A stretch of DNA of 64,000 bases, taken from assembly GCA_028554795.2 (NCBI GenBank), contig JAPYKE020000037.1:3164501-3228500 (forward strand), given 5' to 3'. Made by a program: the position numbers and the translations under genes. Under the pieces are notes generated by a model. The model was not told the DNA's origin. It made no database searches and saw only the letters and a program-made list of their open reading frames with translations. Positions 2 through 28,041 of this stretch are shown here, piece after piece. Origin of the DNA: Sinohyriopsis cumingii. Its lineage: Eukaryota > Mollusca > Bivalvia > Unionida > Unionidae. Position 1 is the stretch's first letter. Every line of letters begins with the position of its first letter.

Positions 2-310
2 GGTTACTTACCTAACTGGACGACCGAATTGTTTCGCGTCACTGGACGAGTGCATGGCCGTCATCCTACCGTCTATAAATTGGAAGACATGAACGGAGAA
101 GTGCTCAAAGGAACGTTTTATTTGCCCGAGTTACAACGTGTCACCAAAAAAGAAGACGACGTGTACGACATCGAAAGCATTCTCGAACGCAGAACCCGTA
201 AAGTGGGCAAACGACGTGTCAAAGAAGTCAAAGTACGTTGGAAAGGATATCCACCCAGTTTTGATTCTTGGATCGACGCTTCGCAAGTCATCGACTATAA
301 AAAGAAGTGA
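2..310 (+). CDS. Integrase C-terminal part with chromodomain (5' truncated by window)
   Basis: The reading frame is open from the window edge to a TGA at 308-310, so the catalytic core lies to the left. The visible part starts with a small beta-barrel-like segment (PNWTTELF, then TVYKLEDMNGE, then GTFYLPELQRV), the pattern that follows the DDE core in retroviral-type integrases of Mavericks and gypsy elements. It ends in a chromodomain with YDIESILERR, KVRWKGYP and SWID. In this family the integrase inserts the linear DNA element, and the chromodomain is thought to bind histone tails and direct target choice. The next gene starts only 5 bases downstream and the following ones are on the same strand, as in a compact viral transcription unit. 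The family call is firm. Whether the parent is called an adintovirus or a Polinton cannot be settled from this fragment. Confidence 0.85.
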   Translation, partial: GYLPNWTTELFRVTGRVHGRHPTVYKLEDMNGEVLKGTFYLPELQRVTKKEDDVYDIESILERRTRKVGKRRVKEVKVRWKGYPPSFDSWIDASQVIDYKKK

Positions 311-2098: not shown

Positions 2099-3409
2099 AT
2101 GATGCACCGAGAGTCTTGCGCCTGTTCCAAGACGGAACTGGATCTGTTTGCAATGCCACCCACCATGATGACCATGCAAGAATCCCAATGGGTGGAATTT
2201 CATCCCGTCTCCTCATTGACCGATTCCGCTCCCATCGAGTTTGAAATCAAAGGACAGCCCGAATATTACATCGATCTGAATAGCAGTTACTTGTACTTGA
2301 AAGTCAAAGTTCCTGATAAGGATGGAAATACTATAGACACTGAGCTAGTAGCTCCCGTCAACAATTTCATGCATTCCTTGTTTAGCGAAGTGGACTTGTA
2401 CTTGAATAACAAACTAGTCAGTAGCAGCATGGATACTTACCCTTACCGAGCGTACCTGGAAAATCTCTTGACGTACGGAATAGACGCCAAGAACACTCAT
2501 CTGAATGCCTGTGTGGTATGGGAAGCTGACGATGCAGGCCAGTTTGAAACATTCAAAAGTGCTGCAGACAAAGACAACAATGCGGGATTTGTAGAACGAA
2601 GAGACAGAATCAAAGATGGAAAGAGTTAAGAACTGATGGATCGTTTGCATTTGGATATGTGGTTGCAAGAGAAATATTTGCTAAACGGGGTGGATGTCCG
2701 CCTGAGACTGAATCGGAGCAGTACCGCTTTCCATTTATTGGCTGATCGTGATGATAATTACAAAACCAAAATCCAAGAAGCCAGACTCTACGTACGCCGC
2801 GTGGAAGTGTTACCTAAAGTGGGAAACGACATCAGTCAGACGTTGAGCAGAACGACCGCCATGTATCCGATCCGACGTGTAGAAGTGAAAACCTTCACCA
2901 TTCCTAGGAGACAGCGATCCATGATCGAAGATCATCTGTTCCAAGGACAGTTACCCAAACGTTTAATCGTTGGTATGGTCGAGAATACAGCCTTCAACGG
3001 AGCTATCGCTAAAAATCCTTTCTACTTTCAACACTTTGACGTGTCCAAGATCGAAGTCAGTCGCGATGGCAAGACCTTGTGTACCCGACCTTTCGAACCT
3101 AAATTTGGTGACGGAAATTATTTGAGGTCGTACTTGTCCCCGTACGACGCCACTGGACAGTTAGGAACCAACACCAGTCACGGCATTACGTACGAGGATT
3201 ACGCAGGAGGTTATGCTTTGTGGGCTTTCGATTTCACTCCAGACCAAGGCAGCGACGAGGGACATTTCCACCCTATAAAATCTGGCCAGATTCGTGTGGA
3301 ACTTCAGTTTGCAAAGCCACTGGACGAGACAGTGAACGTCATCCTGTATGCAGAATTCGATAATACCATAGAAATCAACAGTTTGAGAGAAGTCATTCTA
3401 GACTATTAG
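2099..3409 (+). pseudogene. F54H12.2-like major capsid protein, split by one in-frame stop
   Basis: The ATG at 2099 (or 2102) opens a frame running to 3409, interrupted only by TAA at 2627-2629. Both halves (182 and 257 codons) are in the same frame with no length change. The N-terminal half has the pattern WVEFHPVSSLTDSAPIEF, YYIDLNSSYLYLKVKV and NNFMHSLFSEVDLYLNNKLV. The second half resumes with a DRLHLDMWLQEKYLLNGV segment and ends in VNVILYAEFDNTIEIN. This matches the metazoan 'F54H12.2-like' proteins, which I take to be double jelly-roll capsid proteins because of length, beta-rich content and position next to penton and protease genes. The stop falls in a variable lysine-rich loop. A single substitution explains the break, so it may be a recent lesion or a sequencing error. 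The hexon role is inferred. Confidence 0.65.
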
Positions 3410-3414
3410 AAGCC

Positions 3415-3918
3415 ATGGAAGACTGTTATCCCTCTTTACCTAGTGGAGAAACTTTAAAGATGAAATGTGAGGAGACCGTGGAAGAAGAATCTCAAGACAA
3501 AGACGAAGACGTTGTCATAATGAAGTCAAGATGGCCAGAACAAGAAGCCCATTTAGTCTGCTGTTTTGCCAAACACTTGGCCGAAAAAATGACGGAATTG
3601 ATCAAGAAAGAGTGTTATGGATGTCAAAACGATCATCCCAGTCAAATTCAACACGATAAATGCCTGATGTTGAGTCAAGAAGAAAAATTGGACGAGTATC
3701 TGGACGAGGTTTGGAGTCTCATCTCGGACGAAGACGTGTTGCACCAGTGGTATAAAGACTTGCGTGAACATTCTTGTCCACCATTAACCACTCAAGAGAT
3801 CCATCGTATCGAAGCTCTCCTGAATCAGAGTGAGGAGACGAAACGAAGAAACGGTTATTTGTCAGACATTTTCAAGCAAAAAGTCAGGATCGAATTGATG
3901 ACTTATTATTACCTGTGA
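3415..3918 (+). CDS. Conserved Cys/His protein of the capsid module, function unknown
   Basis: This intact 167-aa frame starts 5 bases after the MCP stop. The first 40 residues are acidic. The middle carries ECYGCQNDHPSQIQHDKCL (about residues 63-81), a CxxC...H...H...C arrangement likely to bind zinc. The rest is predicted helical with acidic and tryptophan-containing stretches. I recall a C-x-GC-x-x-DHPSQ-x-x-H motif from uncharacterised proteins beside F54H12.2-like genes in invertebrate genomes, which fits its place here, but I know no experiment giving a function. No membrane segment or signal peptide is visible. Confidence 0.6.
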   Translation: MEDCYPSLPSGETLKMKCEETVEEESQDKDEDVVIMKSRWPEQEAHLVCCFAKHLAEKMTELIKKECYGCQNDHPSQIQHDKCLMLSQEEKLDEYLDEVWSLISDEDVLHQWYKDLREHSCPPLTTQEIHRIEALLNQSEETKRRNGYLSDIFKQKVRIELMTYYYL

Positions 3919-3943
3919 AGAAGAAGAAAAAAACACACAAAAC

Positions 3944-4360
3944 ATGGATACCTGGGAACTTTATTACCTTTTGAACCACAGTTCGTATACGGCTTCTTGG
4001 AATCCTGTCGTCTGTGCTAAAGATGAACTCCCTCATCGCAAACCTCAAGACCATCAAGCTTACGTGATCAACACGGACGACAGTCATCTCCCAGGAACCC
4101 ACTGGGTAGCCGTTTACTTTCCTCAAGAAGGATGTGTGGAATATTTCGATTCGTACGGATTGCCTCCTTTGGAAGACGATATCATTGACTTTATGAGAAG
4201 AAATGCTCAGACCACTCGATTCAATAATGTGAAATTACAAGGCACAGATTCCTTGGTGTGTGGACAGTACTGTGTGTATTTTCTGCATCATCGCAGCCTG
4301 GGCTATTCCTTAGAACATTTAGTGACTCATTTTGATCCTCGTCATTCAGAAACGATGTGA
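3944..4360 (+). CDS. Adenain/Ulp1-like cysteine protease (C-terminal tail out of frame to 4500)
   Basis: This 138-aa frame has the catalytic layout of the adenovirus-protease clan: His in GTHWVAVYF, an acidic residue in EYFDSYGLPP, and the nucleophile in SLVCGQYCVYFL. In adenoviruses and Mavericks this enzyme cleaves capsid precursors during maturation. The C-terminus stops early (TGA at 4358), but another frame continues without interruption from about 4357 to TAG at 4498, giving 47 codons rich in Trp, His, Gln and Cys. A one- or two-base indel near 4350 has therefore probably detached the tail. The core and all catalytic residues are intact. It is the last gene of the left unit, and an AATAAA follows at 4617. 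Confidence 0.8.
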   Translation: MDTWELYYLLNHSSYTASWNPVVCAKDELPHRKPQDHQAYVINTDDSHLPGTHWVAVYFPQEGCVEYFDSYGLPPLEDDIIDFMRRNAQTTRFNNVKLQGTDSLVCGQYCVYFLHHRSLGYSLEHLVTHFDPRHSETM

Positions 4361-4616
4361 AAGTAGATCGATGGTTTTGTGACCATTATGCTTATCTTTT
4401 GTCTCAAGCTAGGAAACGTAGTGTCCATCAATGGCCTAATGACTTCCAACAGTGGAAATCACAATTTCATTCACAACGTTGTCAGCCCTGTTTAAAGTAG
4501 AGTGTGAATTGAGTAAAAAAATGTTTGCAATTTGAAAAATATGTTTGATGTTATAGGGTTGGATTATTGTTTAAAAAATGTTAGAGTTGTTGTTGTTTAG
4601 TGTTAAGTGATTTTTG

Positions 4617-4622
4617 AATAAA
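4617..4622 (+). terminator. Candidate polyadenylation signal for the capsid unit
   Basis: AATAAA lies 117 bases after the end of the protease tail, in a T/G-rich stretch (4560-4660) of the kind found around cleavage sites. It is the first canonical signal after the tightly packed genes of element A. The downstream small genes carry histone-type stem-loops instead. Confidence 0.4.
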
Positions 4623-4748: not shown

Positions 4749-4790
4749 TGGGGGATGTTTTCCTTCACGTCCGCGCTTTGACTTTAAGAA
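4749..4790 (+). promoter_or_regulatory. Shared CRE-like promoter box, copy 1 (gene A)
   Basis: The box reads GGGGGATGTTTTCC then TTCACGTCCGCGC, followed by a TATA-like ACTTTAAGAA at 4781-4790. It lies about 50 bases before the first ATG of small gene A. The TCACGTC core resembles an ATF/CREB half-site. The same roughly 30-bp string recurs upstream of genes B and C. Confidence 0.6.
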
Positions 4791-4841
4791 CCGGGTTGTT
4801 TCAAGTCTAACCATCCATTGTCGACTCATCCTCCTACGAAG

Positions 4842-5229
4842 ATGTGCTCCAAATTAGCTAATCTAAACGAAGCCGACGTGAATTTGCATAGGGTCAGACA
4901 CAGTCTGATACCGAAGCCAGAAGAGATAGAGAATGTGAGAATGCTAAAAGTCGCTGAAGACCTGATAGAAGAGCTCTTCAGAGAAGAAGTGAACAGGGAG
5001 ATAGAAGAATGGACATAGAAGTACAGACTTCAGAGACAGCAGCAGCAGCAGCAACAGCAACAACAATAACAACAGCAGCAGCAGCAACCTGAACCTGACA
5101 GAGGCTTTGTCGATTGTCGTATCGACACCAAAGAGTTCTTCTTCTCTTTCCGAAGAAGCAGACCTATCGCCAGAAAGTCTATCCTCAGAGGACATTGCAT
5201 TCTTAGAAACTAAAAAACGATTGCCATAG
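4842..5229 (+). CDS. Small helical gene A (frameshifted between residue 58 and a Ser/Asn-rich tail)
   Basis: From ATG 4842 a 58-codon frame ends at TAG 5016-5018. It encodes a charged helix with RMLKVAEDLIEELFREEVNR, a pattern that recurs in gene C as ARHIIEGMIEDEV and more weakly in gene B as ARRIVNELSAEAIV. Right after the stop lies a CAG/CAA repeat (5036-5088). The +1 frame is open through it and on to TAG 5227-5229, reading as a Ser/Asn tract and then an acidic Ser/Glu-rich region. That stop is only 22 bases from a histone-type stem-loop. I infer that the gene originally ran 4842-5229 and suffered a frameshift, perhaps from slippage in the repeat. Function is unknown. The promoter and 3' end are shared with genes B and C. 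Confidence 0.45.
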
Positions 5230-5251
5230 CAAACAAAAAAACACAAAAAAC

Positions 5252-5290
5252 AGCCCTTTTCAGGGCTACCCCAATACTCTAGAAAAGAAA
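5252..5290 (+). terminator. Histone-mRNA-type 3' stem-loop with purine-rich downstream element (gene A)
   Basis: AGCCCT-TTTC-AGGGCT forms a perfect 6-bp stem with a 4-base TTTC loop, followed by ACCCCA. About 13 bases later comes AGAAAAGAAA (5281-5290). This matches the architecture of metazoan replication-dependent histone 3' ends: a 6-bp stem bound by SLBP, a pyrimidine loop, ACCCA, then a purine-rich histone downstream element paired by U7 snRNA. The A-rich sequence in front (ACAAAAAACAG) also fits. Confidence 0.8.
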
Positions 5291-5607
5291 TAACCATCAA
5301 TTTGCCAATGTGTGTAGGTAGAGTAGTGTGAATATAAACACTAACTCTTTTTTAAAAAAATGTGAGGGTATGTGTTTGTGTATAAGATTGTGTGTTTGTA
5401 AGTGCTCACGTAGGTTGGTGAGGATAGTATATTAAAATGATGTCTTTTTTTGGTGTTTGAGGTGTAGATTTGGGGTTAGATTGGATTGCTTTGCGTATCT
5501 GGATAGTCTATTGAAGTGATTAATGAAAAAAAATTTTTACAATAGTAATGGGTAGCATAAAAAGTGAGTGAGTGTTTCTTTTAGGTCCGCGTGTTGTTGT
5601 TTTTTTG

Positions 5608-5680
5608 GTCATGATCTAGGTAAGATCAATTTTATGTTTTTAGGGGGATGTTTTCCATCACGTCCGCGCTTTCAGTATAA
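5608..5680 (+). promoter_or_regulatory. Shared CRE-like promoter box, copy 2 (gene B)
   Basis: A 40-base block beginning GGTCATGATCTAGGTAAGATC (5608) runs into GGGGGATGTTTTCCATCACG then TCCGCGCTTT (5643-5672), followed by a clear TATAA at 5676-5680. It lies about 60 bases upstream of the ATG of gene B. The identical block-plus-box arrangement stands at 6362-6436 before gene C. An incomplete extra box (GTCCGCGTGTTG) lies at 5585. Confidence 0.65.
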
Positions 5681-5738
5681 ATTGAAACTCGCTCGGCAGT
5701 CTAGCTACCCTTGTTGATTGATCAACACCACCAGAAGA

Positions 5739-6047
5739 ATGAACACCAGAATTGTGAAATTGCCAGAACTCCAGATGCACCTGGAATATGCCAGGCGCAT
5801 AGTAAATGAACTATCCGCGGAAGCCATAGTAGAAGAGGCAAGAATAAAGAAGGAAGAGGAGGAGAGAAGAGAGAGGGAAGAGGAGGAAAAGAAAATAGGA
5901 GAGAGGATGACTTACAAGATACCAGAGACAGAGGATTGGGGTGCTGAAGCCAATCATCCCGCCTCTGCACTCCCAAGAAGAAAGGTGAAAGGAGACTGGG
6001 GAAGAAGATGCGTGTGTGGCGCCAGGCCAGGAAGGTGCCATCATTAG
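5739..6047 (+). CDS. Small charged helical gene B
   Basis: This 102-codon frame from ATG 5739 has an N-terminal helix (MHLEYARRIVNELSAEAIVE) followed by a long Glu/Arg/Lys helix (EEEERREREEEEKK) and a Pro/Gly/Cys-containing C-terminus (RCVCGARPGRC). It has a strong TATAA box 59 bases upstream and a histone-type stem-loop 35 bases after the stop. Its helix pattern resembles those of genes A and C, so the three are probably diverged copies. Bases 5766-5782, near the start of the frame, are the exact reverse complement of 6050-6066 just after the stop. No known function. Confidence 0.5.
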   Translation: MNTRIVKLPELQMHLEYARRIVNELSAEAIVEEARIKKEEEERREREEEEKKIGERMTYKIPETEDWGAEANHPASALPRRKVKGDWGRRCVCGARPGRCHH

Positions 6048-6081
6048 ATAGGTGCATCTGGAGTTCAAAAAAAAAACCAAC

Positions 6082-6120
6082 AGCCCTTTTCAGGGCTACC
6101 CAATACTCTAGAAAAGAAAT
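6082..6120 (+). terminator. Histone-mRNA-type 3' stem-loop (gene B)
   Basis: The sequence is AGCCCT-TTTC-AGGGCT followed directly by ACCCA, with GAAAAGAAAT at 6111-6120. The stem-loop, the 20 bases after it and a further stretch (GAAATAACCATCAATTTGCC) are nearly identical to those after gene A. The two 3' ends were therefore duplicated together with their genes. Confidence 0.85.
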
Positions 6121-6328
6121 AACCATCAATTTGCCAATGTATGTAGGTAGAGTAGTGTGAATATAAAAATTAACTCTTTTTTCATAGTGCGAGTGTATGT
6201 GTTAGTGTGTTTGTGTTTGTAACTGCTCACGTAAGTTTGTGTGAATAGTAGATTATGGGTTTCTTTATTGTTTCTTAGCGTATGTGGAGAGTATAGTTTG
6301 GGTTTTATTATATGAAATGAGAAAAGTA

Positions 6329-6436
6329 GGTGGATGTTTTCCTTCACGTCCGCGCGTTGTTTGGTCATGATCTAGGTAAGATCAATTTTATGTTTTTAGG
6401 GGGATGTTTTCCTTCACGTCCGCGCTTTTCGTATAA
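6329..6436 (+). promoter_or_regulatory. Doubled CRE-like promoter box, copies 3 and 4 (gene C)
   Basis: The first box (GGTGGATGTTTTCCTTCACG then TCCGCGCG) lies at 6329-6356. The GGTCATGATCTAGGTAAGATC block starts at 6362. A second complete box is at 6399-6429, followed by TATAA at 6432-6436. The ATG of gene C is about 54 bases further on. The doubled, evenly spaced arrangement suggests a real regulatory module rather than chance. Confidence 0.65.
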
Positions 6437-6489
6437 GAACCCACAGTATTCGTCGTTCAAACCATTCTACAAAGAATAATCTAGACAAG

Positions 6490-7086
6490 ATGACGCAAGT
6501 GACTGATTTATTTAATCAATTGAGGCATATCTATTTCTGGATAATAGAAGCAGAATATGCTATAGAAAGGATACAAAAGGAATGGGAGTATGAAGATAAA
6601 GAACACTTGGTAACCAGTCAAGTCGAACGTATAAAGACCGCCAGACATATAATAGAAGGAATGATAGAAGATGAAGTCAACAAATCAAGAGGATTTATTG
6701 ACCCACCTTATGTAAGAGTGGGGAGTTTGAAGGAAGCACTGGATTATGTCATCCAAGTCCGGTGCTTCCTAGAACATATAGTGTATTGGACGGAGTTGTC
6801 ATATATGAAGAGAGGACTGAACAGGTTGAAAAAAGGAGAAGAAATAATGAAACAAGTGATGACTGAAGAGGTGAAAAAGATAAAAGAAAAATGGAGTCCA
6901 GAAAAAAAGGATAAGGAAACAATAAAGAAGAAAGAGGCCTTTGACAAAGTGAATCAAAATTGGATCAAGATACAAGAGAAGTTCAGGGCTATGGGTCACC
7001 CAGACTGGTTACCTGAAAAAGAAAAGAGGAAGAACAAAGGAATTTGGGGAAAGATTAGGGGCTGGATGAGAAAATGGAGGAAATAG
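6490..7086 (+). CDS. Small helical gene C, Lys/Trp-rich
   Basis: This intact 198-aa frame starts at ATG 6490, the first ATG after the TATAA at 6432. The protein is almost entirely predicted helix. It has aromatic N-terminal helices (YFWIIEAEYAIERIQKEWEY), then TARHIIEGMIEDEV, which resembles gene A, then a Lys/Glu-rich coiled-coil-like stretch (about residues 105-165) and a very basic Trp-rich end (GKIRGWMRKWRK). There is no signal peptide or obvious membrane segment. The basic end could bind nucleic acid or membrane. I do not recognise the family. A histone-type stem-loop follows 25 bases after the stop. It is the best preserved of the three genes and the best candidate for a functional product. 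Confidence 0.65.
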   Translation: MTQVTDLFNQLRHIYFWIIEAEYAIERIQKEWEYEDKEHLVTSQVERIKTARHIIEGMIEDEVNKSRGFIDPPYVRVGSLKEALDYVIQVRCFLEHIVYWTELSYMKRGLNRLKKGEEIMKQVMTEEVKKIKEKWSPEKKDKETIKKKEAFDKVNQNWIKIQEKFRAMGHPDWLPEKEKRKNKGIWGKIRGWMRKWRK

Positions 7087-7110
7087 AAGAAGAAGCAGAA
7101 GAAAGCCAAA

Positions 7111-7131
7111 GACCCTTTTCAGGGCCACCCA
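7111..7131 (+). terminator. Histone-mRNA-type 3' stem-loop, variant (gene C)
   Basis: CCAAA precedes GACCCT-TTTC-AGGGCC-ACCCA. The upstream CCAAA and downstream ACCCA match the histone consensus exactly. One A-C mismatch lies in the second stem pair. The flanks differ from those after genes A and B, so the element is either older or diverged independently. Confidence 0.75.
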
Positions 7132-7199
7132 TATTTCTCGAATGACTTTCCATTGCCTACCCCTTTTTTTTAAAAAAAAAATTTAAAAAAAAAAAAAAT

Positions 7200-7460
7200 C
7201 CCATGTTCAATTCTCCCTTGTCCCTAGATAGACCCACACTTTATTCCCCATGTTCAATTCCCTTGAGGCTAGAGTGGCCCACGATTTTTTCCCATGTTCA
7301 ATTCCCTTGAGGCTAGGTTTGCCCACGATTTTTCTCCATGTTCAATTCCCCTTGAGGCTAGGTTTGCCCACGATTTTTCTCCATGTTAATTTTCCATTGA
7401 GGCTAGGTTTGCCCAAGGGGGGTCTGTAATGCTAATTCCCATTGAGGCTAGGGTGCCCCT
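7200..7460. repeat. Tandem repeat, about 45-50 bp unit
   Basis: About five diverged copies of a unit CCATGTTCAATTCCCTTGAG then GCTAGGTTTGCCCACGATTTTTCT follow a poly(T)/poly(A) stretch (7160-7198). There is no coding potential. It separates the small-gene cluster from the H1 pseudogene. Confidence 0.75.
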
Positions 7461-7489
7461 ATTCACTACTGTTCTGTTTGCACTTTCTT

Positions 7490-8038
7490 AAGCCGAATGT
7501 GTGTTATTTTACTGCGTCTTTGTTACCTTAGCCTTCTTCTTTGGTGTCTTGGTTTTCTTGGAATTAGGTGTCTTATGCTAGTTTGGACATTTGGCCTTCT
7601 TGCGTTTTGATGCCTTTTTCTCTCGAACTGTTTTTTTTAGCTGCCTTCTTCTTGGGAATCTTGGACCATGGGGATTTTACCAGCTCACCTTGTTTTCTTG
7701 GATGTCATTTTAGGCGGTTTGGCACCTAGTCGGAAGGACCTACAGGCGCCATTTCTCTTGGACTGATTAAGAACACCTGTCTTGATGTCACCCTTAAGAT
7801 CATCTTTAAGATGGGTGTTGACATTATAGTCAGTGGCGATATGCTTTAATATTGCTTGCCTTGAAGAACCGCGTCTCTTCTTTAGGTTGCTGATAGCGGC
7901 TTGCACCATATCGCTGTACTTTGGGTGGCTAGGCGGCGCCTTTTACTTGAAAGGCTTTCTCTTTGGTGACTTGGTAATACGCGAGAAGCAGCAGCAGGAG
8001 CAGGAGCTGTGGCAGTATCAGTTATTTTCACGAGCCAT
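7490..8038 (-). pseudogene. Linker histone H1 pseudogene
   Basis: On the minus strand the stretch from about 7942 to 7685 encodes a recognisable H1/H5 winged-helix domain (SHPKYSDMVQAAISNLKKR, SSRQAILKHI, HLKDDLKGDIKTGVL, then GACRSFRLGAK). In functional H1 it binds the nucleosome dyad. An Ala/Pro-rich N-terminal tail (TATAPAPAAAS) is readable at about 7985-8015 but in another frame. A TAA at 7945-7943 and at least one more frameshift separate it from the domain. The Lys/Ala-type C-terminal tail after 7685 is broken by several stops. I saw no histone stem-loop after this copy. Its closeness to three histone-type 3' ends is notable. Confidence 0.85.
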
Positions 8039-11939: not shown

Positions 11940-13104
11940 ATGGCACATCCAGAATTCATACTGCAAGGATAGCTCTAGAACGATTAGAAGCAATCAAAAA
12001 CTTTCTTCCTGTTAGAGATTCATTCAGAAAAAAACTACAAGCGCAGCAGGAAGCACAAGTTGAGTACGAAGAAGACACTGAAAAACTATTTAAACCCGTC
12101 ACTGCAGCTACTAAGAAAGCTGCAGCGGCTGTTGAAAAAACTATATGGGGAGATATTGCGGAGGAAGATGAGAAGAGGGAAAAGGGTATTTTTCCAGTAT
12201 TAGAACAGACTGCAGCGCAGACTGAAAAAATAGCAAGAAGAACCAAACAAACAAAAAAGATTTTACGAGATCTTCCAACTGATATAGCTGCAGCTCAACC
12301 TCCACCCGTTGGTGAAGATATTGAAGAACTTCGTACTGAAGTCGCCGACGTGAGAAAAGAACTTGCATCTGAACCCGAACCAGTAGAAGTAAACGCAGAA
12401 TTGATTGCAAGATTTAACGAAGAGTTTGTTGAAGATATTAGAAATACTAAAAGAGAAAAAAATACCGAAATAATGTTATTTGGTATGTTTAATAAATCTA
12501 ATATTTTAAAACCCAGTCGTAAAAAAGTGAGTAATGATGATCTTATTAGATGGATATATCGCGTATATAGAAACAAAAAACAAGCCAGAGGTCCAGAATT
12601 CAAAAGTATTTATGAAGAAGTAAAAAGACTTTATAGAGAGAGACTGGAACAACTAGAACAAGAACAATTCTCCCAGCAGGAACCTTCATATCAACTTCCT
12701 CCACCGCAGCAAGAAGAACCTTCACCGCAGCAAAGGTTGATGTCGGAACTTGAGAGGTCTGAGAAGATACTTGAAAAAGCAAAAGAAAAAAATCACCCTT
12801 AAGACTATTTAAGAAAACAATAAAAGAAAGAGAACGGATGTTGGAAGGGGAGGATGATGATGATCCTCCGAGCGCTGTAGGAAGTGGTTTTCTGACTTCA
12901 TCAGGAGAAAATAATTTTGTTTGTCCTAATAATATCCTTAATGACGTGTCACGGTTAGAAGTTCTCATAGGGGGAAAACGTGCCGGAAATAATTCACCAG
13001 AAATAACCAATAAAGCAGCTGATATTTGTCGGCGATTATTTCAAGGTGGCATCATGGATATTGGCGTTTACCGAGAACTTATTGATGAGCTCGTTGATGA
13101 TTAG
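11940..13104 (+). pseudogene. Coiled-coil/PQ-rich virion-type protein, frameshifted
   Basis: An ATG at 11940 opens ten codons in one frame. The main frame (11942-12802) has no upstream ATG until 12350 but continues the same protein: an N-terminal helix (RIALERLEAIKNFLPVRDSF), an Ala/Lys/Glu-rich coiled coil, a conserved-looking block (DDLIRWIYRVYRNKKQARG) and a Gln/Pro-rich linker. At an A7 run (12786-12792) the frame must shift by -1 to reach the C-terminal part (12838-13104), which ends CPNNILNDVSRLEVLIGGK and RELIDELVDD. It is the first gene inside the left TIR. I do not know the family. Its position suggests a structural or scaffold role. Confidence 0.55.
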
Positions 13105-13138
13105 TCACCGCGATTAGATAAATGGTAAATAAAATAAG

Positions 13139-13596
13139 ATGACCCTACACAATAATCATCGTAAATCCGTATCGGTCAAAGCGGTAAACTCACGATTATC
13201 AATCTATAGAGTCATTTACGGAGATGGTTTTGGTGATGTTATTTAGGGATTATTTACAAGGTTAGCCCAAAAGCAGCGCCTATTGCAAAACAATTATAGA
13301 TGAAAGCTATTGATATTGTTCGTGAAAAAGCTCCTGGTGCAATTGTCAATGTTGCTGGTAAGGCGTTCTTGGCGATCAAAGATAGACTAGCACGATTAAT
13401 AAGACGAAAACAACAACTAGTAAAATTGCCAAGTACTGAAATTGTGCCCGCAGATGTCAGTAAAATAATAAATCAAGCTGCAAATCAAAAACTAGCAGCG
13501 TTGGCAGATCGGGGACTCAGTGAATCGGGAAATAATATCTCAAGTTTAATATCAGGAAGTGGAACTTCCCGAAGTGGAATTTTCCGAACGCGGTAA
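13139..13596 (+). pseudogene. Small basic core-type protein, broken
   Basis: From ATG 13139 a short frame includes a G-x-GFGDV segment and meets an in-frame TAG near 13245. A second frame (13300-13596, 98 codons) continues with helical basic sequence (IVREKAPGAIVNVAGKAFLA, then RLARLIRRKQQ). The G-x-GD-then-helix layout, basic nature and position just before the MCP parallel the intact 138-aa gene at 1668-2084 in element A, so I regard them as homologous. A DNA-binding core or minor capsid role is inferred from that. Confidence 0.5.
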
Positions 13597-13628
13597 TCAA
13601 CGTGTTAGACGAAAATAATTACAATAAA

Positions 13629-15004
13629 ATGTTCAAGCGCGTATCCGACACAGCATTTGACATGGAAGCACCTGTCCTTAAAGATGAATCGGTACGTGAT
13701 TATCAGTTTTATTCTTATGACGCACGAACACCAGATCAACGTGGACAAAGAATTGAACTACAAGTTCATGACACAAGTAGATATTTTCTACCCGCTGAGG
13801 CTTTTATTGAGGTAGAACGTACAATTGTAAAAACGGATGATACTAATTAGAGAAATGAAGTAAAAGTTGGTTTTGTCAATAACGGAATCATGGCATTATT
13901 TGGTAGTGCCACGTATATGATTGATGGAAAAAATATTGAATCGATTCAGAATGATGTCGACGTTGCTACAACAATAATAGGGTTGGCAAGATATTCTGAT
14001 GATTATACAAGATCAGCAGGTCCCACAATGATGTTTGCGAAAGATAATTCTAATAACCCTGAAAGCGATCTGTATAATATAAGACGACCAAGAAACAATG
14101 CCAATAACGCTGATGCTGATGTGGCGCCAGTAGTTCATGGTTCTAATGAACATCTCAACTTGGGACTTGCAGCGCGTAGAAATATGTTGCTAGGAGACAA
14201 TAGAAGATTTTCATTACAATTCCACTATCGCATATTTTGGGATTTTGTAGGAATGTTAAAAAGGTTATTTTTGGAACTAGGCACACGGTTGTTCTTGTAA
14301 GAAAGGGTGATGATAACGATGCTCTGTGGAGACCTGCTGGTGATGCTGGTAAGGTAATATTATCAAAACTTTCACTGTGGATGCCGGTAATGACTCCAAC
14401 GATCGCAGAAGAACAAAAATTGATTTCTTTCATGGACACAGGTGGTAAATCCTTGTTGTCATGGTTAACAACAAACACAGATAGTATGCAAACTAACGTT
14501 AACAATCAGTTTACATCGCATATAGCATCACAACAAGGTGTTTCTGCACCACGGCATATTTTTATTGCGTTTCAGAACCACGGTCGTTTAGGTAATCAAG
14601 AACGTACTCATATGATATTTGACCAACTAGGTCTCACAAATATTTCCTTACGGATAAACGGACAACAAGAACCAACAGAGAATATACAACTAAATTATGG
14701 TCAAAATCATATAGGACGTGCATATCATCGTTTGATGTCATTCATGGGACGTGATCAAAATGTAGATACTGGGTTGCAAATATCACAAAATGATTTCAGA
14801 ACTTTGTATCCGATTTATTATTTTTCACTGGAGCATCTTGATCTATCAAAACAATCTGTCGTTGATATACATCTTAAAGCAACATTAAATACACGTGGTG
14901 TTAATTACAGAGTAATCGCGGTTATACTCAGCGATAAAGCCATGTTACTTGAAGGTGGTAGTGGTCGAATAAAAGTCATTGATGCACCAGTGGAAAATCT
15001 TTAA
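13629..15004 (+). pseudogene. Major capsid protein-like gene with one stop and one frameshift
   Basis: The frame from ATG 13629 (a GTG-initiated frame begins at 13602) meets TAG at 13848-13850 and resumes in the same frame to about 14235. It then needs a shift to the frame that runs to TAA 15004. Recognisable blocks include VRDYQFYSYDARTPDQRGQ, ATYMIDGKNIESIQNDVDV, HTVVLVRKGDDNDALWR, DVNTG-type turns and an RDxNxDxGLQIS-x-x-DF-x-x-x-YPIYYFSLEHLDL segment. Length (about 460 codons) and beta-rich character fit a double jelly-roll capsid protein of Mavericks, and its neighbours are minor capsid, protease and penton genes. The matching part of the second copy lies at 53340-53990. The MCP role is inferred. 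Confidence 0.6.
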
Positions 15005-15039
15005 TCATTATTTGGAGCGTGGCAAGTATTTATCATAAA

Positions 15040-15914
15040 ATGCCATATCATCACGTTAGTGTAAGTCTGACTACTGGACAGATTAAAAACCCTCAATCAA
15101 ATTCAGCAAAAAACTGCGGAATGAAAATATCACTAAAGCGAGATCAGATCACGGGTGGTCAAAATAAACTATTATTATCAGAACGCCAGCTTAAACATTT
15201 CAAAGGGCTAAACAATCAAAAACAGGCGTCAAACTTAATCTCTCTGCGGGTGCGATTAAGGACATAGTTAAAACAGGTGGTATTTTTCCACTTCTCGCGG
15301 CTATTCCAGCATTAATAGCTGCTGCTGCTCCAGCCGTAGCAAAAGCATCCGCGTTAGGTGCTGTTGGAACAGCTGCTGGAATGGCTCTAAAGAAAGCAAC
15401 TGGAAATGGCTATAAGAAAGGGATGCGGCCGAAGATTACCGGGATCTCGTTGGGGAAGAGGTCTGAGGCTTCCAGGATCACTTCGTTAGATGCTCCAGCA
15501 TCAAATTTTGATTTACTTGATGATGCTAAGCGATTAAAAATAAAAAATTTCAGAGATGTATTTATGCGAGATCAATTACCGAAACAACCGAACAAACTCG
15601 AAACAGGTATTATTAATCTTGACTCGAATTCAGGACCTGGTACTCATTGGGTATCATACGCGGTTGATCCACGTGAAATCGTTTATTTTGATTCATACGG
15701 GTTAGCTCCACCCACTGAGTTTATCAAGTATGTTGCACCACTTCACGCGCAAGTTTGGTATTCAACGCTACCCACACAAACAATGACAGATCCGCCAATA
15801 TGCGGCCGTGAAGTAATTAATGTACTTAACGCTATATCAAAATCATCCAAACCGCCACATAAAGTCGTGAATGATTATACAAGCAACCGCTTCGTTGCGC
15901 GTAAAGCGTTTTAA
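15040..15914 (+). pseudogene. Minor capsid/membrane-active region fused to adenain-like protease, one frameshift
   Basis: The start at ATG 15040 is chosen because the second copy begins at the equivalent place (53308, minus). The N-terminal part has a VSLTTGQ...LKRDQITGG...LLLSERQLKHF repeat-like pattern. A frameshift near 15230 joins it to GGIFPLLAAIPALIAAAAPA, a hydrophobic Ala-rich stretch, and then a basic linker. The C-terminal part is the protease: His in GTHWVSYA, acidic residue in VYFDSYGLAPP, Cys in PPICGREV. In the second copy (53146-52718) the hydrophobic part and the linker lie in one frame. A self-released membrane-active peptide resembling adenovirus pVI would fit, but that is inference. 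Confidence 0.7.
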
Positions 15915-15931
15915 ACAGATCTTAGATTATA

Positions 15932-16953
15932 ATGATTGATATTTACGGAAGATCTTCTTTACGCGTTAAGAAAAAAGCCGATGACATTGATCTGTCGAAG
16001 TACGTGACTACAGATGAACTCGCTGATATTATGAATCTTGCTGGAGTTGACCCAGATGAGGTTGTTATTTTTCAGGACCGATACGGAAAACGAAAAACGA
16101 GCAATATCAAATGGAATGATATAATTCGACGAGTACTCGGTGCGGTCACGGATAATATACCTCTGTTTACTGACAGCGGCAGAATTAGGGATTCAAATAT
16201 ATCGTTTATAACCATCAGAGATCAAATTACAGCAAGTGTTGCTAATCGCGTGAAAAATACCGGTGACACAATGACAGGTGAACCCAGCATGAACGGGAAT
16301 AAGATAGTAGTTTTGAGAGATCCAACATCCGACGAAGACGCAGCAACAAAAAATACGTTGATGTCAACTACAACACCGTAGATGGTAAATTATCCACGTT
16401 GCGGGCCGAGTATGACGTTCACACAAATGCGTTTACAAATCTTCGCAGAAACTTTAGAAAAATTAATGAAACCGCAGAGGAATTTTTTGGTACTCCGCCC
16501 ACCGTTGACGTAAAACTCGTTGATATCAAAACTAACCTAGACACAACTAAAAAAACACTCGAAGATGTCGTAGCGGGGATTCCTGAGATCGTTAATAAAA
16601 CCAGTTTGATTAAAATTCCCGGCATGGTTACTCCCGGGCATATTACCAACATCGTGTACACAGTATCATCTGGATTCGCAACATGGTCGCAGCAAAATAA
16701 AACTATCAAATATACTGCAACAGTTACTGGCGTGTACAGGCTGTCTGTGTTTAGTGCTGCAAAATTTGAAATATTTACATCGTATCCATGTCGTCATTCA
16801 ACTGATAAGTTTTCCAGGGTTGTATCTGTTATATTAAATAGCGGAAACGAGGAAATATTTATTCTGGAAGCAGCTGATAAGAAATTAACCGCAACATCTT
16901 TCTGGTGGTGTTTGGAATTTGTAGCTGACACACCTCAATTGGTTACTGCATAA
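15932..16953 (+). pseudogene. Fibre-like protein with phage tail-fibre motif, one frameshift
   Basis: Starting at ATG 15932, residues about 1-110 contain DLSKYVTTDELADIM and PDEVVIFQDRYGKRKTSNIK. Then comes NTGDTMTGEPSMNGNKIVVL followed by RDPTSDEDAATKN, the motif that links shaft repeats in many bacteriophage tail fibres. A one-base shift near 16365 leads into a helical stretch (LRAEYDVHTNAFTNLRRNF, TKKTLEDVVAGIPEIVNK) and a C-terminal beta-rich head that ends at TAA 16953. The layout suggests a trimeric receptor-binding fibre. The second copy (51555-52337, minus) keeps the same order with its own breaks. The fibre role is inferred from the motif and from neighbours. Confidence 0.65.
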
Positions 16954-16959
16954 AATATA

Positions 16960-17498
16960 ATGAGTATCTCAATCGACGTTCAAAAATTTAGGTACAATCA
17001 AGCGCGTGAATGGCAGGCAGCGTTGAAAGATCGAGTCGAACAATATACAGTAAAAATAAAAAAGTATCAACGACGATTAATTATCATCGACGTTGTTGTT
17101 TATTCAGTATCCGCTGTTGTTCCTGGAGCTGGAATAATATTATCCGCGGTAACAATGATGGTACCAGTAGCTGTGACTATTTGTATTTCAGCTGCAACAA
17201 CAATTGCAGGTGTGCTTAATATCATTGCAAAAAAATATGTACTTGCACGAATGAAAAATTATCCGATTACATGATAAAATTACACATAGCAACTGTCGCA
17301 TACTCGAAGTTATCCTCGTTGTTATCAGCGAGTCTCAGTGATGGAATTATATCTGATTTTGAGTTTTCAGAGATGATTAAAATATACAACTGCGCTGGTG
17401 TTAAAGGTACGAGTATTAATAATGACGGAATTACTACAGCAGATCGTAACGAACACAACCCCGCACAAGACCACGATGATCTCGGTAAGCTCGATTAA
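16960..17498 (+). CDS. Two-pass membrane protein with helical tail (frames overlap ATGA)
   Basis: Frame one (16960-17274, 104 aa) has a charged N-terminal helix (KDRVEQYTVKIKKYQRR) and two strong hydrophobic segments, about residues 42-62 (IIDVVVYSVSAVVPGAGIIL) and 66-88 (MVPVAVTICISAATTIAGVL). Frame two (17271-17498) starts inside the stop at ATGA and reads AYSKLSSLLSASLSDGIISD then EFSEM. In related elements, as I recall, the KL..I...I..AL.DG.IS..EF pattern follows the membrane pair in one protein. A one-base indel may therefore have split a single gene of about 170 aa. Beyond about 17400 the second frame runs into the start of the penton gene. The fold resembles SLATT-type two-helix membrane proteins only in layout. 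Confidence 0.55.
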
Positions 17499-18835
17499 TC
17501 CTGAATTTGACACCAATTTTCCAACTGCAATTCGCGCAAATGAAATTGCACTAGCGCAATTACGAGTATACCATAGTTGGCCAAATATCAGATCGAGATC
17601 ATTTAATGGTACACCAGCAAATAATTCCCCTGCATTTGCTAATAAGAATAAACCCGATGGAACACCTGACTGGGTCGTTGTTGGAATAACAACTGACAGT
17701 TATGAAATCGAACAAATCAATGATAAATTTGCGCGTAGAATAAAATCAATAACAGGAAAAGAATCAAAAATATCAATTAATGTTCATGAGCCGACGCTAT
17801 CTTCTGCAATCGTAATAAACTCTCCTGATCATGTCGTTGATATTTATCAGTCCACGATAAGATCCGTGCTAGGTTGGCCTGAAATATCAGCACCAATACC
17901 TACACAGATACCAGAACCAACTCGGGCTGATTTTACATCGACGAAAAGTTTTCATCATAATATTAAAATGAATTATGCGAGTTTTTGGTGGAACATAGAA
18001 AAATGGTATGGGATAAACGGGATCAATTTCGGGTCGATAAAACTGGTGAATACTATTGGCTTTTACACAACGCTGATAACGGTAATAACCTGTATAATTC
18101 ATTTTACGATATAAATATCAATAATGTCATTGATATCATAAATTCAGGTCACGAAGAGCAACTCGTTAATTTGCGTGTTCTTTTTTATGAATATTTATCT
18201 GATTTGACATCTGCGCGTGAAGAAATTATTAAACGAATAGAAATTTTAAATCATATAGCTGATACCATTGAATATTTTCATAATAGGATCATAAACTTGG
18301 TTTTTGAATCATCGGGGGATTATAGAAGGTTTATCGCAACCAAATACAAAATCCCGAAGCTGACATTGCAACGTTTAAGTTCCCTGATTATAATCCAGAT
18401 AGATTAAGAAAATCTGTCAATGATGTCATTAATGAACATTTTCCTAAAATAATCGATGCGTGGAGAAAAATAGCCCCACCAGCAACTGTTCTTAGATATA
18501 ATAATCATCCACACGGTGGCGGCAGACATGTATCTCCGGGAATCGTTAATGTAACATCGACAATCGCGGTTAATCTAGTTTGTGACGTAATCGAAGGCAG
18601 TTATCAAATAGATCTTGGAAAATCAAATCAGGCTCAACAAGGATATATCCTATACACGTTCACACCACAAGTTCCCCATGGGGATTTGATCGTGCAAGTA
18701 CCAACCAATCCTATTTATCTACCCACACGTAATCAGTATTTGTCACGAATAAATTTCAAACTCACAGACCACATAGGACGATTAATTGGCCTGCGTGGGG
18801 AGGAATTGATTGTCAATCAACATGTAAAGTCTTAA
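17422..18835 (+). pseudogene. Penton-like capsid protein with helical insert, two frameshifts
   Basis: ATG 17422 opens a frame whose N-terminus (TTMISVSSINPEFDTNF, EIALAQLRVYHSWPNIR) and middle (TDSYEIEQINDKFARRI, STIRSVLGWP) are typical of this family in Maverick-like elements. The frame is lost near 18050. The second frame (to about 18350) reads GEYYWLLHNADNGNNLYNSF and a helical stretch. A third frame ends at TAA 18835 with GYILYTFTPQVP, NPIYLPTRNQYLSRINFKL and HIGRLIGLRGEE. The C-terminal IYLP...L..I pattern matches the intact 309-aa penton-like gene of element A. The total of about 470 codons is much longer, owing to a helical block in the middle. The second copy lacks this gene. Confidence 0.6.
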
Positions 18836-18938
18836 AGACTTTTATCGTAATGACTTTTGATCATAGATTTTTTATCAGAAATATTTTATTTTATTTTATC
18901 AGAAATATTCTGTTTTATTTTATTTTATCAGAAATATT

Positions 18939-19245
18939 CCAACATTTTTAGTCAAATATGTTATTTTTAGTCGATTTGTCAAATTACAGTTTTTCGTCAG
19001 GTCAAACCTCAAGCGGTTCTCTAATTGATTTATCGATAAATCGTTAAAAATCTGTAAAATTACCAGAAAAATTAACAAAAATCGCATGAAAACTCTAATT
19101 TTTTGAGCTAATTTTACTGATTTTTTAACGATTTATCGATAAATCAATTAGAGAACCGCTTGAGGTTTGACCCGAATGAAATTGGAAAATTTATCAATTT
19201 TCCTTGACAAATCGACTAAAATTAACAAATTTGACTAAAAATGTT
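18939..19245. repeat. Large imperfect palindrome at mid-element
   Basis: The left arm (about 18939-19050) and right arm (about 19122-19245) are inverted copies. The best block is GCGGTTCTCTAATTGATTTA then TCGATAAATCGTTAAAAA, matching its reverse complement at 19123-19163. A 70-base AT-rich spacer separates the arms. It sits exactly between the plus-strand virion genes and the replication/integration genes. Confidence 0.85.
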
Positions 19246-19284
19246 GAAATATTTTATTTTTTCTGAAAATTTGATCATTTTACA

Positions 19285-19710
19285 TAGTTCTGAGTACCAA
19301 CTAGCCCATCAAAACTACGAAATTGATTGGTTTGCATGATTCTGAGTACCAACTAGCCCATCAAAATTACGAAATTGATTGGTTTGCATGATTCTGAGTA
19401 CCAACTAACCCATCAATTTCAGAATAAATAAAATATTTCAGAATAAATATAAAATATTTCAGAATAAATAAAATATTTCAGAATAAATAAAATATTTCAG
19501 AATAAATATAATTTCAGAATAAATATAATTTCAGAATAAATAAAATATTTCAGAAAAAATAAAATATTTCAGAATAAATATAATTTCAGACAAAATAAAA
19601 TATTTCAGAATAAATATAATTTCTGAATAAATAAAATATTAAGATCAAAGATCTATGATAAAATAAAATATTAAGATCAAAGATCTATGATAAAATTAAA
19701 TATTAAGATC
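19285..19710. repeat. Nested AT-rich minisatellites
   Basis: Three copies of a roughly 52-bp unit (GATTCTGAGTACCAACTAGC then CCATCAAAAC...) are followed by about ten copies of AATAAAATATTTCAG variants. Three copies of a 30-bp unit, AATAAAATATTAAGATCAAA then GATCTATGAT, come last. No coding content. Confidence 0.85.
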
Positions 19711-19719
19711 AAAGATCTA

Positions 19720-20189
19720 CACGTGGTCAGCGTTGACAGGGACCCCAGTTACCGAAAGTTTCATTTTCATTTTCACCAGAATTATTTAGTACTACTTCAC
19801 CAACAAGGTTACTTTGAATCGTTTCACCAACGAGGTTACTCGCTAGCATAATTTGTCTTAATTGTCTTATGCGAGTACTAATTAGTTTTTTTGCTTCGTA
19901 TTCGTGAGATAACTCTAATCTAATTTTTTCTACTGCGGCAGAGAGAGAGGAACGAATTCCTTCACTTGATTATCTTCTACAGTAACTAGCGACTGAAACA
20001 TCGCCGCCTGAATCCGTTTCATGAACTTGTATCCAGATGATAGTGTGTATATTCCTTGGTTTTTACGTTCTTGTAAAATTTCAAAATCAGAAATTATTTT
20101 CTCAGGATTTAGTTCATCGGTTATATTAATTCTAACTTTTTCTAATTCTTTATAGCAACAATTACATCATTAATATTTTCGTAGTTCAT
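19720..20189 (-). pseudogene. Degenerate small gene, function unknown
   Basis: On the minus strand an ATG at 20189 opens a frame that stops within 20 codons. Readable segments in shifted frames follow, such as GIYTLSSGYKFMKRIQAAMF and ASNLVGETIQSNLVGEVVLN. The combined length would be about 155 residues, mostly helical, with at least three breaks. It precedes the palindrome in convergent orientation to the penton gene. I recognise no family, and the evidence is protein-like composition only. Confidence 0.35.
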
Positions 20190-20195
20190 TATTTA

Positions 20196-20197
<2 letters not shown>

Positions 20198-20287
<90 letters not shown>
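20198..20287. repeat. (TA)n microsatellite
   Basis: About 45 TA dinucleotides inside the Maverick, immediately upstream of the degenerate minus-strand gene. Confidence 0.97.
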
Positions 20288-20293
<6 letters not shown>

Positions 20294-20299
20294 AAAAAA

Positions 20300-20700
20300 T
20301 ATATTCCCCCTATGAACATCTATTTGAGTCTTTTAGCAAGTTCAGGAAGGGGCACAGCACAACATATACAATGAATGATTGTAAGTATGCGATGAGTGAA
20401 TGAAATGAAATATATAAAATGAATGAAATCTTAATTAAGAACGGCACAACCAGAACTCGTAGCTTGCCACCGCATTCTACCAAGTTCAACGGGCACACGA
20501 AATACTACCCCCTATGAGAGCCCCTAACCGGTCAAACAATGGTCTAGAGGCCCAAGAAGGAGGACAGCAAAAACATATATAAATGAATGATTGAACCTCT
20601 ATTCGAGTGTATTGTCAGGTTCAGTAAGTATGCAATGAATGAATGAAATGGAATATATGCAATAAATGAAATCTTAATTAAGGACGGCACAAACATAAAT
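20300..20700. repeat. Diverged direct duplication, about 200 bp unit
   Basis: Two units share ATGAATGATTG, GTAAGTATGC, GAATGAATGAAATG-type strings and AATGAAATCTTAATTAAG then ACGGCACAA. The first lies at about 20310-20500 and the second at about 20510-20700. Non-coding, apparently inserted sequence. Confidence 0.6.
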
Positions 20701-20867
20701 GAGGCCATTTTGTACGCTCAACAGAACACCACCACCCCCAATAATCAGCCCGTGGGTGATACAAAACATGTATCAACCACCAGTGACGTGTGGTTGGAGG
20801 GTTCTGTTGAGCGTCGAGGGGCTGGCGGTGCCCCAATTAATTATAAAAATCTCTAATATGCGTAACC

Positions 20868-20956
20868 ACCGAAGGTTGTCAGTCATGGGATTCGATCCTG
20901 GGACCGTGAGCATCACGGCCAGATGCGTTACCAACTGAGCTATCGAAACAACTAAC
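20868..20956 (-). mobile_element. tRNA-like sequence, probably a SINE head
   Basis: Read on the minus strand, the region contains an A-box-like ATAGCTCAGTTGGTAACGCA and a B-box-like GGATCGAATCC, with short acceptor-like ends (GTTGT/ACAAC). The anticodon arm would form a 5-bp stem with loop GATGCTC, which lacks the usual pyrimidine-T start. A functional tRNA is therefore unlikely. An adjacent inverted pair, TACGCTCAACAGAAC and GTTCTGTTGAGCG (20711-20815), may mark the same insert. Confidence 0.45.
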
Positions 20957-20999
20957 AATATACGTTTCAAAGGTTATTATATAGCTACAAAATCGGTTT

Positions 21000-21330
21000 A
21001 AATATTTCTGAATCAAAACAGCGGTTTCTGAATAGATTGTAAATTTCTGTATTAAAACAGCGGTTTCTGAATAGATTGTAAATTTATATATTAAAAACAG
21101 CGTGTTCTGCCAAGATTTCTCGTAGCAGATTGTAAATATCTTGCACCAACAGCGTATTCTGTCTATTTACATACTACCACTGCACCATCAAACGTTTTAC
21201 CACCTACAGATCGGTTTAAATATTTCTGTATTTCTGAACAGATTGTAAATATCTGCATTAAAAACAGCGTGCTGTGCCTCGATTTCTCATAACAGATCTA
21301 AAAATAGCTCGCTATATTGTACGATGTGAA
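21000..21330. repeat. Diverged tandem repeats with AACAGCG(T/G)
   Basis: About five units of 45-80 bp carry TCTG-AT-AGATTGTAAAT and ATTAAAACAGCGGTTTCTGA variants. No coding content. Confidence 0.6.
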
Positions 21331-22100: not shown

Positions 22101-22190
22101 TTATACAATAATATTATTTGTTTAAATCATAATTTGTCTGAAAACTTAGTTTGATAATCCTCCACGGATTTTATAGCTTTGTTATTGACG

Positions 22191-22427: not shown

Positions 22428-22462
22428 AATATTTTAATTTAAATATTTGCTTGAAATATAAT

Positions 22463-27358: not shown

Positions 27359-27374
27359 GGATATTTTATACAGC

Positions 27375-28037: not shown

Positions 28038-28041
28038 ATTA

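Follow-up and report, generated by a model that had tools for sequence, protein, structure and literature searches.

A Maverick/Polinton element with genes A, B and C at its right end

The window analyzed here is a 64,000-nt stretch of the Sinohyriopsis cumingii genome (contig JAPYKE020000037.1), to which all positions refer. It contains the following parts of a virus-like mobile element:

89..310, + strand, end of the integrase ORF with a chromodomain (Pfam Chromo, 35.3 bits)
2099..3409, + strand, capsid-type gene, which a stop divides here into two pieces, 2099-2629 and 2636-3409
3944..4360, + strand, adenain-like protease piece (Peptidase_C5 match at E = 0.0044, short of the curated cut-off)
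4617..4622, + strand, AATAAA behind the late genes
4842..5018, + strand, gene A, broken here (ORF ends at 5018); intact, with 116-125 aa, in 14 other copies
5739..6047, + strand, gene B, 102 aa here and 98-126 aa in most other copies
6490..7086, + strand, gene C, 198 aa, with five relatives 48-52% identical
7102..7470, + strand, right terminal inverted repeat (TIR), an inverted copy 84% identical
7471..7476, + strand, 6-bp TSD GTTCTG, with its partner at L009 9070-9075

An earlier note on this DNA, made from the letters alone, had described genes A, B and C as virus-adjacent. They actually lie inside the virus-like element, a Maverick/Polinton of about 18.4 kb, and constitute its right end, the stem-loop of gene C falling within the right TIR. 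Like other (adintovirus-like) members of this class, the element has TIRs, a 6-bp TSD, an rve integrase, PolB, an A32-like ATPase, a C5-like protease (its match being below the curated cut-off) and an F54H12.2-like capsid; it differs in that its accessory genes carry histone-type promoters and 3' ends. Pfam recognized DNA_pol_B_2, the A32-like ATPase and rve, whose core lies left of the window (L010:9156-9998, 54.7 bits), as does the left TIR (10.6-10.9 kb left of the window start). The capsid-type gene had no capsid match in Pfam. Its second piece had 205 homologues, and among the 120 listed most of the named ones were F54H12.2-like proteins (bivalves, echinoderms), which we take to be Maverick major capsid proteins; our capsid call is based on these homologues.

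The window copy adjoins a remnant of an H1 gene. Because this remnant lies beyond the TSD and occurs at only 1 of 19 copies, we rejected it as a trace of histone-gene capture and regard it as a coincidence.

The element is abundant. Exact capsid 18-mers occurred 10,216 times genome-wide and exact A/B stem 18-mers 19,814 times, with no occurrence of the controls in either case. When 54 capsid matches were chosen blind to the stems, 33 were accompanied by both exact stem 18-mers, 10 by one and 11 by none; among these last, five had recognizable stems and six had no cassette.

Proteins A, B and C are conserved and are not recognizable histones

None of the proteins A, B and C gave a convincing Pfam match or, in particular, a match to a histone family, in agreement with the earlier note. 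Intact ORFs from other copies are under purifying selection, with dN/dS values between 0.07 and 0.18 (A, 0.10; B, 0.18; C, 0.12 for the long type and 0.07 for the short type). The two types of C are related to each other (E = 3e-6), and the predicted structure of the gene C product consists entirely of helices (mean pLDDT 70.6). No relationship of A or B to C could be demonstrated with hhalign, a match of B to a charged stretch of short-type C (E = 3e-5) being discarded as low-complexity.

Histone-type stem-loops follow the genes

The 3' features of genes A to C are:

5252..5267, + strand, histone-type stem-loop A (AGCCCT TTTC AGGGCT)
5277..5290, + strand, downstream element A, CTCTAGAAAAGAAA, GAAAAG 14 nt after the stem
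6082..6097, + strand, histone-type stem-loop B (cmscan and folding)
6106..6119, + strand, downstream element B, CTCTAGAAAAGAAA, GAAAAG 13 nt after the stem
7111..7126, + strand, histone-type stem-loop C, with an A.C mismatch in this copy
7137..7150, + strand, site of downstream element C, which this copy has lost; most other copies have CTCGAAAAGAGA

The three stem-loops are where the earlier note had placed them, on the + strand, and the exact core CCCTTTTCAGGG occurs three times in the window, each time at one of them. When the whole window was scanned with cmscan up to E = 5, the Rfam histone model (RF00032, Histone3) matched only at stems A, B and C (31.7 bits, E = 3.3e-5; 29.3 bits, E = 2.7e-4; 27.7 bits, E = 1e-3), leaving the late-gene stretch without a match. 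The covariance check that the note had suggested gives matches at these places, but each of the three scores falls short of the gathering score (34), and at that threshold the whole window had no match. The proposed 6-bp stem holds for A and B, which fold better than shuffles (z = -2.1 and -2.3), but not for C in this copy, whose mismatched stem (-4.3 kcal/mol, z = 0.40) is no better than its shuffles. The proposed distance of 22-35 nt between gene and stem likewise applies to B and C here and to A in intact copies, but not to the broken A of the window.

In other copies stem C is better preserved. It is a perfect GGCCCTTTTCAGGGCC in 16 of 18, and among the 14 of these 18 loci that were submitted to RF00032 it reached at least the gathering score in eight, as expected of a conserved histone stem-loop; stems A and B did so neither in the window nor in the 14 loci, and the A, B and C stems of the window remain at E values of 3e-5 to 1e-3. 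Stem C is also unchanged where the adjoining short-type C ORFs have diverged to a mean dS of about 1.1. Covariation within the stem was slight: in an alignment of eight distinct rows, host and element mixed, two of the six pairs had changed on both sides, and in 500 shuffles of this alignment the pair count was reached in 38, the covariation score in 6 and the number of further pair types in all 500. Absence of the stem-loop from all related loci, which the note had named as evidence against its reading, is not what the element's own genome displays.

The earlier note had further reported a purine-rich element behind two of the three stems. This proved right for A and B, where GAAAAG lies 13-14 nt past the stem in 19 of 19 copies each. 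The third gene does lack the element in the window, but only by loss, since GAAAAG occurs 11-13 nt past the stem in 15 of the 18 copies having stem C. In the host histone unit (H3-H4-H2B-H2A-H1) all five genes score above the RF00032 gathering score and have GAAAAG 13-14 nt past the stem, so that A and B share both the core and the fixed spacing of the purine element with all five host genes, and the note's description of a full histone-type 3' layout stands with these corrections.

The same 3' layout was found at two left-end genes, D (in one copy) and E (in two copies), although the D ORF of the window's own element reads on through the stem. Stems C and E lie within the TIRs, A and B outside them.

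Genes A to C carry a histone promoter block

Upstream of the genes we found a feature beyond what the earlier note had seen, namely a promoter block of histone type:

4750..4792, + strand, gene A promoter block, CACGTCCGCGC at 4766
5575..5592, + strand, H4-type promoter block upstream of gene B, TTTCTTTTAGGTCCGCG
5643..5685, + strand, gene B promoter block, with TATAAA after it
6329..6371, + strand, extra histone-type promoter block
6399..6441, + strand, gene C promoter block, containing CACGTCCGCGC and TATAA

Of 56 ORFs across 19 copies (the window plus 18 that had been fetched for their stems), six begin elsewhere than expected and were left out; in all of the other 50 the block lies 63-86 nt upstream of the ATG. 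In shuffles it appeared in 1 of 2800. The motif CACGTCCGCGC, with at most one mismatch, precedes the same 50 ORFs. It also occurs in host H2B and H1, host H4 having the variant GGTCCGC. We take CGTCCGC to be a HINFP site, putative here. The factor HiNF-P acts at H4 promoters, as stated in the consulted part of PMC5706932.

The likeness to the host extends to near-identity. At gene B, 24 nt (5647-5670) are identical to the host H2B promoter, and 25 of 26 nt of the element promoter are identical to host H1. The H4-type block matches the host H4 promoter exactly over 21-23 nt in other copies, and in the window departs from it after GTCCGCG. Among the 60 best host-element matches listed, the remaining ones fell on the stem and purine box, on the H1 remnant that lies outside the element, or, over 20 nt at two loci, within H2B coding sequence; this last match we took as chance. 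The exact promoter block is absent at genes D and E.

Poly(A) signals and processing factors

An AATAAA lies 606-639 nt upstream of stem A in 18 of 18 other copies. In 12 of 18 copies a further AATAAA lies 69-81 nt past the stem A core, and in 3 of 18 one lies 78 nt past stem B; messages could be polyadenylated at these places.

The U7 snRNA model RF00066 found nothing in the element's own genome, and its controls matched nowhere either; the SLBP domain had no match, in a search that was uninformative for the same reason. A designed U7 pattern gave a single, seemingly perfect match genome-wide, where Rfam had no match; we dropped this candidate because the locus, on its reverse strand, reads as the decayed end of a gene B. 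With a looser pattern there were 389 matches versus 191 for the reversed control, and no clear U7 among the roughly 100 listed.

Relatives in other hosts

Viral contigs, searched with a capsid piece, two stem-loop patterns and a capsid alignment, contained no relatives. Genome contigs yielded one from another host, a contaminant Bathymodiolus contig. It is a decayed relic with neither stem nor promoter motif, and no cassette genes were recognized behind its capsid gene. The pairing of small ORFs with stem-loops, which the earlier note had proposed to look for in related elements of other genomes, recurs among copies in the same genome but not in this relic.

Probable imitation of replication-dependent histone genes

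Metazoan replication-dependent histone genes (RF00032) share with genes A-C the 6-bp stem, the 4-base loop and the ACCCA-type flank, a GAAAAG box 13-14 nt further on, a short ORF whose stop lies a few tens of nucleotides before the stem, and the promoter block. They differ in that the element proteins are no recognizable histones, that the genes reside in a virus-like element, and that stems A and B use an A-U closing pair. The 3' ends are best read as histone-type ends of the SLBP/U7 kind, borne by genes of a DNA element that do not code for histones, and the five accessory genes at the ends of the Maverick/Polinton are very probably expressed as imitation replication-dependent histone genes. 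Host S-phase promoter factors (HINFP-type) would read the copied block at A, B and C. At all five genes, host SLBP would bind the stem-loop, the U7 snRNP would pair with the purine box (predicted pairing sequence CTCTAGAAAAGA) and the 3' endonuclease would cleave the RNA a few bases past the stem, so that the messages would lack poly(A) and be present mainly in S phase. Ordinary AATAAA signals would serve the capsid/protease block and the zinc-knuckle gene. This suggests that the element reads out its small genes only during host DNA copying, and we infer that its activity is thereby tied to host replication.

It is an unlikely alternative that host histone flanks were captured by recombination and that stems and promoter blocks are functionless hitchhikers. 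The near-identity of promoter blocks and stem/purine boxes to those of the host would fit such an origin, as would the H1 remnant beside the window copy, were it not outside the TSD and confined to one copy. However, the matches are restricted to regulatory blocks, and in those pieces of the element that were searched by tblastn with the five host histones (E = 1e-3), no leftover of histone coding sequence was detected. Moreover, the 3' layout is common to five genes, purifying selection acts on the ORFs, and stem C has stayed constant beside the diverged short-type C ORFs.

Less probable still, the hairpins might have a different function, for instance in terminating transcription, in replication or in packaging, their likeness to histone ends being accidental. 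Stems C and E do sit in the TIRs, where Maverick replication signals could be located, but A and B do not, the late-gene stretch has no Histone3 match, and the agreement with host histone genes covers the strand, the position past the stop, the core and spacing of the purine box, and the promoter. Equally improbable is a decoy whose RNAs mainly soak up SLBP/U7 and starve the host of histones, the small proteins being secondary: five stem-loop genes per element and some 20,000 exact A/B ends would suit it, but a decoy requires no ORF while A, B and C are conserved, and genomic copy number is silent on expression.

Imitation of histone genes remains the favored reading. It appears that both ends of a histone gene have been copied by a virus-like mobile element onto unrelated proteins and retained there under selection. 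Such genes would offer a naturally occurring test of which features define a "histone gene", and they would show a specific way in which a DNA element can synchronize its expression with host S phase. The chances seem about even that an animal DNA virus lineage has transferred its accessory regulon in its entirety to the host histone locus programme, promoter and U7/SLBP ends included. If so, its messages would be poly(A)-free and limited to S phase and would escape RNA sequencing that relies on poly(A) selection, a warning for poly(A)-based transcriptomes where such viral genes are concerned, and the programme may have helped the lineage to reach about 10,000 copies.

To our knowledge, SLBP/U7 3' ends have been thought of as private to replication-dependent histones, and the literature searched held no precedent for histone-type ends on genes of such elements. 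A term search of a vertebrate Maverick study (PMC8097293) gave no occurrence of either histone or stem-loop. The 'Histoid' genes of adomaviruses and tailtomaviruses, as described in the consulted part of PMC11071296, also link animal DNA viruses to histones; there the protein is histone-like, whereas here only the regulatory ends are.

The Maverick Element

The three small non-histone genes A, B and C belong to a Maverick/Polinton element, part of which makes up the left 7.5 kb of the window.

-10924..-10595 and 7102..7470 (window coordinates): terminal inverted repeats (TIRs)
7536-8019, minus strand: linker histone H1 remnant (Pfam, 54.8 bits), just outside the target site duplication

The TIRs are flanked by a 6-bp duplication, GTTCTG. 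The element codes for PolB (PF03175, 89 bits), an A32-like ATPase, an rve integrase with a chromodomain, and an F54H12.2-like protein, which we take to be the major capsid protein and whose gene has named relatives in bivalves. A piece of a C5-like protease is also present, its match being below the cut-off. Several Maverick genes are broken in the window copy. The right TIR contains a tandem repeat of ~45 bp in 4-5 copies (7200-7459). No such H1 remnant turned up in the sequence collected around the 18 other copies of the element.

Histone-Type 3' Ends

Histone-mRNA-type 3' stem-loops on A, B and C had been proposed from the sequence alone, and an Rfam scan of the window bore this out: the histone 3' UTR model (Histone3, RF00032) matched all three, with E values of 3.3e-5 to 1e-3, below the gathering score, and matched nothing else in the 64 kb up to E 5. 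The 6-bp stems described for all three genes held for A and B, which are perfect, but not for the window's stem C, which has an A.C mismatch and folds no better than shuffles. This weakness is local to the window copy. Stem C is kept in 17 of the 18 other copies (picked by an exact A/B 18-mer), in 16 with the sequence GGCCCTTTTCAGGGCC, and exceeds the gathering score in 8 of the 14 loci submitted. Covariation was slight, with 2 of 6 pairs changed over 8 distinct rows and a pair-type count not above shuffles.

As a yardstick we used one host histone unit, in which H3, H4, H2B, H2A and H1 (whose best named matches are mussel, oyster and other mollusc proteins) all lie on one strand and all carry Histone3 stems (35.0-39.4 bits). 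Together with the bivalve relatives of the capsid gene, the H1 matches suggest that the host is a bivalve. The GAAAAG core of the downstream purine element follows the stem end by 13, 13, 13, 14 and 14 nt, respectively, in the host genes and by 13-14 nt in all 19 copies of A and all 19 of B; past stem C it is found at 11-13 nt in 15/18 and is lost in three copies, including the window's. Host stop codons lie 27-38 nt upstream of the stem. Most stops in the element fall 17-36 nt before it (15/19 for A, 16/19 for B and 15/18 for C; each of these figures is one base too high), and in the remainder, mostly broken or truncated ORFs, the distance is 51-720 nt. According to PMC6210712, stems and purine boxes were already known from bivalve histone genes. 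Downstream of the purine element, A, B and the left-end gene D carry a box like CAATTTGCCAA (window 5292-5330 and 6121-6160; 3800-3835 of L029, another piece from this genome), and host H2A has CAATTTTGCCAC at a similar position.

The same 3' layout was found in D and E, two divergent genes at the left end of the element, with CGAAAAG boxes after both stems. D encodes 186 aa in the neighboring inverted copy, its stem lying 25 nt past the stop; the D ORF of the window's element continues through the stem. E encodes 76-77 aa in both copies, and its stem, 23-24 nt past the stop, is inside the left TIR. That neighboring Maverick copy (L009, 1-8700) is directly left of the window's, and the stems on its D and E are perfect.

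AATAAA is found behind the late genes in 18/18 copies and, on the minus strand, behind the zinc-knuckle gene. It also follows two of the stems, 69-81 nt from the stem-A core in 12/18 copies and 78 nt from stem B in 3/18, suggesting that a poly(A) alternative exists for genes A and B.

Histone Promoter Blocks

Upstream of gene B, the block GATGTTTTCCATCACGTCCGCGC is identical over 24 nt in the host H2B promoter and matches host H1 at 25/26 nt; host H4 shares 21-23 nt with a second block, TTTCTTTTAGGTCCGCGCGTT. When the histone unit was compared with the element pieces, the best 60 rows comprised these promoter blocks and the stem/purine box (36 nt, 89%), together with the H1 remnant, which lies outside the element, and, at two loci, a 20-nt match inside H2B coding sequence that looks like chance.

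With at most one mismatch, CACGTCCGCGC was present 63-86 nt upstream of the ATG in all 50 ORFs of A, B and C that begin at the expected start (41 exact matches; 6 of 56 ORFs, starting elsewhere, were left out), and 49 of the 50 had a TATA-like box. Shuffles gave such a promoter match in 1/2800. The promoter shared by D and E had no exact histone block. The motif CGTCCGC is presumably a HINFP site. HiNF-P is linked to H4 promoters and NPAT in PMC5706932. Of the literature searches on the motif, one returned no paper and the other none with the motif string among the 8 matches listed of 27.

Selection and Copy Number

For unbroken ORFs, dN/dS (mean dN to mean dS) was 0.10 for gene A (14 ORFs), 0.18 for B (15 ORFs), 0.07 for the short type of C (7 ORFs, mean dS 1.09) and 0.12 for the long type (5 ORFs, 6/10 pairs usable). 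The two C proteins, of ~198 and ~127 aa, are exchangeable, with the same promoter before and the same stem after them (L011-L028, further copies), with the shorter protein matching the latter half of the longer. The long type has five relatives (48-52% identity) on jgi and ena contigs of ~0.6-1.1 kb.

The 2.9-Gb assembly contains 19,814 occurrences of the A/B 18-mer and 10,216 of a capsid 18-mer (controls, 0). Because the first copies had been picked by their stems, we took a stem-blind sample, the first 54 exact capsid matches on contig 1, a choice biased to less decayed copies. Both exact stem 18-mers were at the expected distance in 33, one in 10 (a count that says nothing on the second stem) and none in 11. 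Six of these 11 were without the cassette of small accessory genes; five kept cassette sequence and recognizable stems, some of them altered by single changes or an indel, and in the most diverged, L034, both stems were perfect. Among 100 listed stem matches, 24 had no exact capsid match nearby. The stem-loop, on whose recurrence in related loci the earlier note had staked its proposal, is present in further copies within the same genome. The capsid-to-stem-A distance was in most cases close to 990 or 1,970 nt, with two near 1,500; two short-class copies, L014 and L021, are without the window stretch 3456-4515 (ORF and protease).

The only relative found from another host was a decayed contig of Bathymodiolus within a symbiont MAG, and it had neither stem nor promoter. 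No cassette genes were recognized behind its capsid gene, so that this contig cannot say much about the feature.

The reading that fits A-E best is that of virus-element genes run via the host histone-gene program. Anatomy gives strong support to their histone-type 3' ends, and for A-C so does selection; judging from these sequences, their messages would undergo histone-type processing with S-phase timing. Host U7 was not found with the Rfam model, whose controls found none either, or, among the matches listed, with pattern searches of the host's own genome, nor was the host SLBP domain in a search whose controls likewise found none. No earlier report of such element genes was found among the matches listed from the open-license PMC literature, or in passages of PMC11071296, PMC10294476 and PMC8097293.

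Other Features of the Window

A second virus-like lineage occupies 12000-28100 and 47800-53250, the latter an inverted partial copy; it gave no Histone3 match up to E 5 and also includes a helicase-like piece.

15381-15914: adenain-like protease, second lineage
26873-27502, minus strand: phospholipase-A2-like domain, second lineage
27357-28037, and 47829-48302 on the minus strand: A32-type ATPase, second lineage
56554-57318, minus strand: reverse transcriptase of a retroelement (49 bits)

A long near-perfect palindrome at 19013-19159, which draws sub-threshold miRNA-family matches, looks like a fold-back element.
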